A stretch of DNA of 64,000 bases from the NCBI GenBank assembly GCA_902590775.1, contig CACIYC010000005.1, forward strand, positions 1 to 64,000, given 5' to 3'. Shown one piece after another: positions 6,325 through 25,712 of this stretch (its first letter is position 1; each line of letters begins with the position of its first letter). A program made the translations under genes and the position numbers. The DNA is from an uncultured Prochlorococcus sp. (GTDB lineage: Bacteria > Cyanobacteriota > Cyanobacteriia > PCC-6307 > Cyanobiaceae). The notes beneath the pieces were generated by a model. It worked only from the letters and a program-made list of their open reading frames with translations. It was not told the origin of the DNA and ran no database searches.

Positions 6325-6687
6325 TTATTTTTGACTTTTTTCGGATTTATCTAAAAGTTTTTAAAGTAGCTTTTATAATTCATTAGGTGCAAAAGCATTT
6401 AAATATTGGCACTTCATTTTTAATAAATTGCAGAGTTTCTCAAAGTGTTTTTATTTTTTTAATTTATTTTACTTATGAGAACTGCTTTGAATTCAACTTT
6501 TTCGAATGAAGCGCCATAATCTTATTGCTTAACTTCGAATTATTTGGATACAGAGAATGTAATGCTTGAAATTTTTTGTACAAAGGCCATTCATATATCC
6601 TGAATTGGTTGCCAGTAGATTGATCTTAAGGTTCCATTTCAGATTTTACTCTTTTAATTTTGGGCTCATTCCTTTTTGGTTGAAAAA

Positions 6688-6706
6688 TAGGTGTAAAGAC
6701 GGACTT
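6688..6706 (+). promoter_or_regulatory. Conserved leader motif TAGGTGTAAAGACGGACTT (copy 1 of 3)
   Basis: Near-identical motif also upstream of 16547 and 19758. Confidence 0.6.
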
Positions 6707-6752
6707 GTAGGATCTATTTAGAAGGCTAGGTTTAGTGCCCTGCTTTTTCCAG

Positions 6753-6926
6753 ATGAATCAAAAGGAATTTGACACGGTCATTGATCGCTTTTTAGATGGT
6801 GCTGCGAGAGTTAGAGCGAGCAAGTATCAAAATCGAATGAAACCTAAAAATGTCTATAGACAATTATCAAATAGGGTTATTTCCCAAATGTGGGACGAGA
6901 AAAGAAGAAATATTAAAGCCGCTTAG
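6753..6926 (+). CDS. 'FDxxIDxxFLxGA' micro-protein family, member A
   Basis: MNQKEFDTVIDRFLDGAARVRASKYQNRM...; paralogs at 16547 and 19758. Confidence 0.6.
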   Translation: MNQKEFDTVIDRFLDGAARVRASKYQNRMKPKNVYRQLSNRVISQMWDEKRRNIKAA

Positions 6927-6993
6927 TACTTGCATGCTTGATTTTGTTAGGCTGAAATTTTTCTAGGGCCTGCCCTTTAAATCTAAAGAAATC

Positions 6994-7023
6994 ATGATAC
7001 ATCAACCTAACTTGATGTATCAT
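6994..7023 (+). promoter_or_regulatory. Perfect 12-bp inverted repeat ATGATACATCAA-cctaac-TTGATGTATCAT upstream of pstS
   Basis: Arms 6994-7005 and 7012-7023; 27 nt before the pstS start; no T-run. Confidence 0.6.
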
Positions 7024-7050
7024 TGGAAATAATACCTAGCTGGTTTTCTC

Positions 7051-8037
7051 ATGACCTTCGCAAAGAAGGCCCTTCTTCTCTCCTCTGTAATTGTTATGAG
7101 TGCTGGCATCTCTGCCTGTAGCTCTTCAGGCAATTCAACTGTCCGCTTGAGTGGCGCAGGGGCTTCCTTTCCGGCAAAAATCTACACTCGTTGGTTCTCA
7201 GACCTGTCAAAAGAAGGGGGCCCAAGAGTTAACTACCAGGCAATTGGCTCAGGTTCTGGTAGAAAAGCTTTTATTGATCAAACAGTTGATTTTGGTGCTT
7301 CTGACGAGCCAATGAAGGAGAAGGACATAGCTAAAATTAAGCGTGGTCTTGTTCAAATACCAATGATCGGAGGAACAATTGCCTTTGGATATAACTATGA
7401 TTGCGACCTTAGGCTCACCCAAGAGCAGGCAGTTCGCATCGCCATGGGAAAAATTTCGAACTGGAGTGAAGTTGGTTGTCCTGCAGGCAAGATGACTTGG
7501 GCTCACCGTTCTGATGGTTCTGGGACGACTAAAGCCTTTACTAATTCCATGCAAGCTTTCTCTCAAACCTGGACTTTAGGGATAGGTAAATCAGTTGATT
7601 GGCCTGCTGGTATCGGTGGGAAAGGAAATGCCGGGGTTGCAGGTCTTATCCGTAATACACCAGGTGCCATAGGGTATGTCAATCAGTCTTATATCAAAGG
7701 AGAAATTAAGGCTGCAGCTTTACAAAATCTCTCCGGAGAATTCCTTAAGCCATCTAGGAATTCAGGTTCCAAGGCACTGAACGGAATACAGTTAGATGAA
7801 AATTTAGCAGGTCAGAATCCAAATCCATCAGCGCAGGGTGCATATCCCATAGCAACACTTACTTGGATACTTGCATATGAAACTGGCAATGGGAAGAGTA
7901 CTACTGCTATTAAGGAAGCTTTTGATTACTTGTTGAGTGACAAGGCTCAGAGTAAGGCCGCTTCTTTAGGATTTGTTCCTTTGGAAGGAGATATTCTTGC
8001 TAAATCACGTGCAGCTGTAAAGCAAATTAGCAAGTAA
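7051..8037 (+). CDS. pstS: Phosphate ABC transporter substrate-binding lipoprotein
   Basis: Lipobox SAGISAC; PstS-like LSGAGASFPAKIYTRW, GSGSGRKAF, RSDGSGTTKAFT. Confidence 0.95.
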   Translation: MTFAKKALLLSSVIVMSAGISACSSSGNSTVRLSGAGASFPAKIYTRWFSDLSKEGGPRVNYQAIGSGSGRKAFIDQTVDFGASDEPMKEKDIAKIKRGLVQIPMIGGTIAFGYNYDCDLRLTQEQAVRIAMGKISNWSEVGCPAGKMTWAHRSDGSGTTKAFTNSMQAFSQTWTLGIGKSVDWPAGIGGKGNAGVAGLIRNTPGAIGYVNQSYIKGEIKAAALQNLSGEFLKPSRNSGSKALNGIQLDENLAGQNPNPSAQGAYPIATLTWILAYETGNGKSTTAIKEAFDYLLSDKAQSKAASLGFVPLEGDILAKSRAAVKQISK

Positions 8038-16480: not shown

Positions 16481-16499
16481 TAGGTGTTAAGACGGACTT
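16481..16499 (+). promoter_or_regulatory. Conserved leader motif TAGGTGTTAAGACGGACTT (copy 2 of 3)
   Basis: Matches copies at 6688 and 19691. Confidence 0.6.
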
Positions 16500-16546
16500 G
16501 AATGATATTTTTTAAAAGCTATAGTTGCGTAATTGCTTTTTGTTAA

Positions 16547-16708
16547 ATGTCCCAGAGAGAATTTGATGCGATCATTGATGATTGTTTTTTAGATGGAGCA
16601 GCACAGTGTTTAAAAAGAAAGTATAAAGACAAAAATGACTTAAGATTAATAAAAGTTTTTTCTAGGTTAATTGAAAGAAATAAAGGAAGCTTAAGACAAG
16701 CTGTTTAA
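16547..16708 (+). CDS. 'FDxxIDxxFLxGA' micro-protein family, member B (53 aa)
   Basis: MSQREFDAIIDDCFLDGAAQCLKRKYKDKNDLRLIKVFSRLIERNKGSLRQAV; inside the inverted-repeat-flanked segment. Confidence 0.6.
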   Translation: MSQREFDAIIDDCFLDGAAQCLKRKYKDKNDLRLIKVFSRLIERNKGSLRQAV

Positions 16709-18948: not shown

Positions 18949-19569
18949 CTACTCATATTTTGTAAAGCTGAATTTTTGACCGCCTATACTTGCTTCATAC
19001 ATTAATCCACCCTTTGCAAGGGTTAAAACGGCAATGCCATCACTGTAGGCTGTTTCTACAGCTGCCCCTGTGTTGATCAGAGCTGCACTGGCTGAAGCCC
19101 CGAATTCAAAATTACCATCTGTGAATCTTTTGATATCTTTTGTTCCTTCGAAAAAGATGATCTGACTAAATGCTTGGCCTCCAAGCTGGAAACCTATAGA
19201 AACTTGAGTGATAATTATTGATCCGATCACTTTGTCATCTTGAAATAACTCACCTTTTCCACGAGACCCACCAACACCAAATCCAGCTTTTTTGATATTT
19301 GGAAAAACAGCAAAACCTTTAGCGTGTTTAAAATATGGTTTAAGTTCTGGCATTTGTTTAAATTTCTCTAGAGCAATCAACGTTTTTGTACTAGCACCCG
19401 TTTTTGAACCTCTTTTATCTCTAACGGGATTCCATGCAGCAATCAATTTTGATTTACTATCTGTCGATGAAAGAATTAGATTATTTTTTGTTTGATTCAA
19501 TTCAGCTGATGCCTGAGTTTGTGACATAAGCATGAAACTGGATAAAAGGATCGGAGTGAATTTAAACAT
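18949..19569 (-). CDS. SYLF/YSC84-domain lipid-binding-like protein with signal peptide
   Basis: AKGFAVFPNIKKAGFGVGGSRGKGELF ... GASASAALINTGAAVETAYSDGIAVLTLAKGGLMYEASIGGQKFSF. Confidence 0.85.
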   Translation of the reverse strand: MFKFTPILLSSFMLMSQTQASAELNQTKNNLILSSTDSKSKLIAAWNPVRDKRGSKTGASTKTLIALEKFKQMPELKPYFKHAKGFAVFPNIKKAGFGVGGSRGKGELFQDDKVIGSIIITQVSIGFQLGGQAFSQIIFFEGTKDIKRFTDGNFEFGASASAALINTGAAVETAYSDGIAVLTLAKGGLMYEASIGGQKFSFTKYE

Positions 19570-19690: not shown

Positions 19691-19709
19691 TAGGTGTTAA
19701 GACGGATTT
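19691..19709 (+). promoter_or_regulatory. Conserved leader motif TAGGTGTTAAGACGGATTT (copy 3 of 3)
   Basis: Matches copies at 6688 and 16481. Confidence 0.6.
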
Positions 19710-19757
19710 TACTATCTCTTTTTATAGTGCATATTTCATTTAATTGCTTCTACTTCA

Positions 19758-19904
19758 ATGACTTCAAATGCGTTTGATGACTTCATTGACGATTGTTTCT
19801 TAAGTGGGGACGAGATATGTCGCATTAGCAAGTATGAAACTAGAATTAATTTTTTCGCCTCCAAGTTGATTGATGAAACGTTACAGGAAGAAAAAGCTGC
19901 ATAA
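19758..19904 (+). CDS. 'FDxxIDxxFLxGA' micro-protein family, member C (48 aa)
   Basis: MTSNAFDDFIDDCFLSGDEICRISKYETRINFFASKLIDETLQEEKAA. Confidence 0.6.
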   Translation: MTSNAFDDFIDDCFLSGDEICRISKYETRINFFASKLIDETLQEEKAA

Positions 19905-25438: not shown

Positions 25439-25498
25439 TTTTGTAGCAAAAGCTACAAAAACGTTCAACTTGCTACAAAGCAAGCAGTATTACTGCTT
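25439..25498 (+). promoter_or_regulatory. Two consecutive palindromes upstream of the DUF4278-like gene
   Basis: TTTTTGTAGC-aaaa-GCTACAAAAA, then AAGCAGTA-t-TACTGCTT. Confidence 0.55.
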
Positions 25499-25541
25499 AG
25501 GCCATGGAACGGTGACTTAAGTGATTTTAGGAGTCTCAATC

Positions 25542-25712
25542 ATGACTACTCTTTTTTACCGTGGACACGATTATGTTCAACATAAAGAACCAGCTGTAAA
25601 AGCATGTTCTGAGTTGACTTATAGACGTGAGCACTACAACACTTGTAGAGAGACAATTGGAACTGACTTTCACTCAACATTTTCTTATCGCGGTACCAAA
25701 TACGCTAAATGA
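25542..25712 (+). CDS. DUF4278-like small protein
   Basis: MTTLFYRGHDYVQHKEPAV...FSYRGTKYAK. Confidence 0.65.
   Translation: MTTLFYRGHDYVQHKEPAVKACSELTYRREHYNTCRETIGTDFHSTFSYRGTKYAK

Follow-up and report, generated by a model that had tools for sequence, protein, structure and literature searches.

A conserved 19-base box upstream of a family of about 50-residue proteins in low-light Prochlorococcus

In class II activator-dependent promoters, a box centred near −42 replaces the −35 element and is followed, after about 20 nt, by a TAnnnT −10 element, as at cyanobacterial NtcA sites at about −41.5. Another arrangement is found in marine cyanobacteria, where the Downstream-peptide (Glutamine-II) riboswitch, RF01704, is a conserved element lying shortly upstream of repeated, family-specific short ORFs of the Yfr6 type (PMC2864571, PMC1242208). 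The DNA analysed here, 64 000 nt from an uncultured Prochlorococcus sp. (hereafter, the window), contains one such riboswitch, followed by a Yfr6-type micro-ORF (MTTLFYRGHDYVQHKEPAV...), at 25459–25712 (+). It also contains three copies of a different box, each placed upstream of a micro-ORF.

The box and the ORFs that follow it

In the original prediction, a 19-nt element was placed at three positions in the window, each at a nearly fixed distance from one of three paralogous ORFs. The element was present at all three and was refined to the core TAGGTGT-nnn-GACGGAYTT, whose middle three bases are free (W-rich). This pattern matched exactly three times in the window, always on the + strand: at 6688–6706 (member A, TAGGTGTAAAGACGGACTT), 16481–16499 (member B, TAGGTGTTAAGACGGACTT) and 19691–19709 (member C, TAGGTGTTAAGACGGATTT). 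None of 100 shuffled sequences reached three matches (mean expected by chance, 0.05). The distances of 46, 47 and 48 nt to the ATGs at 6753, 16547 and 19758 were confirmed. A fourth match in the source genome, on contig 3, had three mismatches and lay within an unrelated coding sequence. The ORFs, all on the + strand, are A (6753–6926, stop included; type 1, 57 aa, basic, MNQKEFDTVIDRFLDGAARVRA...NIKAA), B (16547–16708; type 2, 53 aa, MSQREFDAIIDDCFLDGAAQ...) and C (19758–19904; type 3, 48 aa, two Cys, MTSNAFDDFIDDCFLSGDEICRISKYETR...). A Ysc84-domain protein (PF04366) is encoded just upstream of member C, at 18949–19569 (−).

Across the genus (14 genomes), the box matched 23 times with ≤2 mismatches, each time 46–48 nt upstream of a family ORF. 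Matches with three mismatches and no ORF were about as frequent as those of a reversed-pattern control. The expectation that the motif precedes a paralog was thus borne out across the genus and beyond it, motifs without paralogs being seen at chance level only. A profile built from sequence alone for the 78-nt leader gave 29 strong matches (E ≤ 8e-7), all at family ORFs; these are the profile's own training rows, and the informative part is that no other gene appears. Below them were two pseudogene remnants, one match at a contig end and noise, and the box leader was found upstream of no non-family gene among the 14 genomes. In the reverse direction, 30 members were recovered in the genus by protein search (E < 1e-7), and the box was missing at one of them only (G006:C3:47241). 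In the type 1 subgroup that has diverged most, it is decayed (TAGGTAAAAAGTCGGATAT) in four genes. The named contigs with the same element are Prochlorococcus single-cell genomes, except for one chance match, and the window itself is attributed to a low-light Prochlorococcus. In low-light Prochlorococcus, nearly every copy of the family has the same 19-base box at a fixed distance upstream.

The ORFs are real and under purifying selection at the protein level, since dN/dS was mostly 0.1–0.2. Of the 11 ortholog pairs compared, 10 gave values of 0.08–0.23, and the closest pair, whose dS was only 0.10, gave 0.51. Type 1 proteins are basic (mean pI 10.1) and type 2 near neutral (6.2); type 3 and the sister group D, described below, are acidic (4.5 and 4.1) and have two conserved cysteines (C-x7-C), which are missing from types 1 and 2. 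AlphaFold models were helical, with two helices, at modest confidence (pLDDT about 77, pTM about 0.33), and their comparison with PDB folds gave no match. The sequences had no match in Pfam, NCBIfam, PHROGs, PADLOC or PDB. No description of the motif or of the family was found in a full-text literature search, most subscription papers being outside its reach. Judged by sequence, this is a real, undescribed family of about 50-residue proteins of low-light Prochlorococcus with a private, strongly conserved, predicted promoter box.

Alternatively, the box might have no regulatory role and simply be the conserved end (a terminus or a recombination site) of a mobile or duplicated cassette that spread recently. 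The copies are indeed dispersed, with several per genome in a small-gene-rich region, and similarity begins sharply at TAGGTG. However, the box is near-identical even where protein identity between paralogs is as low as about 15%, so it is under selection and not merely recent; moreover, no shared sequence was seen downstream of the ORF, and phage searches gave nothing (tblastn, none; PHROGs, none; a viral pattern match, L099, was without ORF). We give this reading next to no credence. Phage origin was rejected, as was a defence system, for which PADLOC gave none.

Promoter-like features of the leader

Conservation extends past the box. An unconserved spacer of 19–21 nt is followed by a second block, YAnnnT, and then by TTAATTGC or GGTGCCC. 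In the window, the putative −10 hexamers recognized by this pattern begin 20 nt past the box, with TAGGTT at 6727–6732 (A), TATAGT at 16520–16525 (B) and CATATT at 19730–19735 (C), all on the + strand. Outside genus g56, YAnnnT was found 19–21 nt past the box in 42 of 42 leaders (control windows: mean 4, maximum 7), which are not independent because paralogs share ancestry; TAnnnT was present at 19–22 nt in 37 of them. Within the hexamer, the middle positions show free variation (TAGCCT, TACTGT, TATAGT, TAAGGT), as they would in a −10 element. Information content, near zero ahead of the box, was high within it and low in the spacer, and rose again at the hexamer. The −10 assignment fails in g56, where nine leaders have CATTAATT in place of YAnnnT. 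Leaders of g56 such as L157 and L158 show a conserved TTAATGACGCATTAA-type inverted repeat where other genera have the −10-like hexamer; it could be a second site.

The original prediction had proposed a shared control element at fixed spacing, acting as a promoter, in the 5′UTR or as a processed leader RNA. The shared element was supported and, of its readings, a promoter was favoured; a processed leader RNA or structured 5′UTR was not. The covariance analysis proposed with it gave no paired columns (RNAalifold, 33 leaders, 0 consensus pairs), the mean MFE folding z over 53 leaders was +0.34, and the leader had no Rfam match at two thresholds. A structured RNA or riboswitch was rejected on these negative results. 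The covariance model of RF01704 did not match at 6500–7100 even at a loose threshold, and there was no gathering-level match at the other two copies.

The leader could instead act as an unstructured 5′UTR element, with transcription starting upstream and the conserved stretch being bound, within the mRNA, by the ribosome, an sRNA or an RNA-binding protein. The distance to the ATG is fixed (46–50 nt), in types 2 and 3 conservation stops only just short of it, and the Glutamine-II riboswitch at 25459–25521, with its micro-ORF, means that such designs exist in this window. Nevertheless, we consider a 5′UTR element unlikely: the folding results count against it, no shared promoter is visible upstream of the box, where the DNA is not conserved, and a free spacer of fixed length ending in YAnnnT is a promoter signature. 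An ordinary sigma-70 promoter, in which the box would hold the −35 (WWGACG) and no dedicated activator would be needed, agrees with the position of the box and its partial likeness to the TTGACA of the sister clade. It is very improbable, as WWGACG lies about 25 nt from the hexamer, not 16–18, and TAGGTG, conserved as strongly as the downstream GACGGA, would be left without explanation.

The 19-bp element probably forms one half, the operator, of a promoter that serves this small-protein family only. A promoter is favoured because of the −10 hexamer at fixed spacing, the lack of RNA structure and the canonical promoter at the same place in the sister clade. If the hexamer is taken as the −10, the box would span about −51 to −33 and replace the consensus −35, in class II geometry, with its centre near −42. 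A putative sequence-specific DNA-binding activator would bind the box, and RNA polymerase would take YAnnnT as the −10. Transcription would then begin about 10–20 nt upstream of the ATG and give a short leader, often rich in pyrimidines, and the co-regulated acidic, neutral and basic two-helix paralogs (about 50 aa) would be made together, answering one signal. Some observations count against the promoter. Past the −10, the leader is constrained in length as well and conserved in part (TTAATTGC), and a pure promoter needs neither; a regulator site limited to one gene family is also unusual.

Other candidates were rejected. A leader peptide encoded upstream in the box was discarded on reading the copies, as GTG TAA stops at once in many of them. 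By reading, the aligned leaders, with consensus TAGGTGTnnnGACGGAYTT, did not match an NtcA box (GTA-N8-TAC near −41.5), and no fit to Pho or HLR1 boxes was seen by eye.

Sister clade, distribution and genomic neighbourhood

Homologues of clade D (FDDFVDDCFIxEDPIC...) have GTTGACA-N16-TGAGAT about 50–57 nt before the ATG instead of the TAGGTG box. Searched as GTTGACA-N11-TCTGnTGAGATR, this pattern had one close match per genome, at the family gene. The likely canonical promoter (TTGACA-N16-TGAGAT) of the sister clade supports the reading of the box as a promoter. A supported branch (97/86) of the protein tree divides clade D from the TAGGTG clade, so that one promoter replacement suffices; G026 and G119 each carry members of both kinds. 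The paralogs would have arisen in low-light Prochlorococcus when the box was duplicated together with the ORF, the proteins then diverging while the promoter stayed constant. Promoter conservation would outlast protein divergence after gene duplication. At L182 (G119:C20), a 133-aa ORF begins with a clade D-like N-terminus, and its leader is without TTGACA or TAGGTG.

Homologues were found with protein profiles in 25 of the 59 genera of the taxonomic family. The motif was present at the same distance in genera g56, g39, g16, g52, g27 and g14, and in decayed form in g4. It was also recovered upstream of homologues found by protein search in genera outside the motif definition, and the element is kept at 46–50 nt in several related genera even at about 35% protein identity. 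In the low-light genus g56, every box match with 0–1 mismatch sits at a family ORF, and one match with two mismatches exposed a divergent FDNLVDNCF ORF that the protein profile had missed. Between species of g56, identity was 93% in the box and 47% in flanking DNA. No family member was found among the listed representatives of g17, g5, g6 and g10. The family seems confined to low-light Prochlorococcus.

Member A had been described as lying upstream of pstS. This is true of that copy but is not conserved: pstS was present at one of 34 related loci examined, that of a distant homologue, about 5 kb away. The pstS neighbourhood of member A is incidental, and membership of a pst regulon was rejected since pstS is absent near the other copies. 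Between ORF A and pstS lies a perfect 12-bp inverted repeat (6994–7023, +; hairpin of −13.7 kcal/mol), followed by a T-run on the − strand only. Types 1, 2 and 3 share one small-gene-rich region in several genomes. In the window, this region encodes an SRAP-domain protein (PF02586; 30304–30936, −) whose relatives recur near the family elsewhere. pcb antenna genes were found within about 6 kb of the family gene at four of seven clade D loci (L273, L275, L277, L281), and g56 loci have hli genes nearby and sometimes psbA. These neighbours, of which pcb and hli are multi-copy, are a tentative lead towards light adaptation.

TAGGTGTnnnGACGGAYTT provides a sequence handle for finding both a putative regulator and a lineage-specific family missed by standard annotation libraries. 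Rather more doubtfully, one transcription factor and its box may be dedicated to a single micro-protein family, which would make a single-family regulon, in a minimal genome that has very few regulators; the acidic and basic paralogs, being co-expressed, might work jointly (e.g. as heteromers), and the canonical promoter may have been replaced once, in low-light Prochlorococcus.

Comparison with known systems

Like the RF01704 system of marine cyanobacteria, the box is a conserved element close upstream of repeated, family-specific short ORFs. However, the RF01704 element is a structured, transcribed aptamer, whereas the box has neither conserved structure nor an Rfam match, and the peptides are unrelated. 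Like Hli and the other lineage-specific small proteins encoded by low-light island micro-genes of Prochlorococcus, the family members are short, lineage-restricted and located in small-gene-rich regions, but they have no Hli, Pfam, NCBIfam, PHROG or PADLOC similarity and are predicted to form two helices. Types 3 and D, being short and acidic with C-x7-C, presumably resemble CP12-like Cys-pair microproteins; however, Pfam gave no CP12 match at E ≤ 1, and types 1 and 2 are without the Cys pair. In sequence, the box differs from NtcA sites (GTA-N8-TAC) and from the Pho and RpaB (HLR1) boxes, and it is confined to one gene family. The likeness to class II promoters lies in the −10-like hexamer at fixed spacing from the box, which is shared by all 42 leaders outside g56 but not by the nine g56 leaders.
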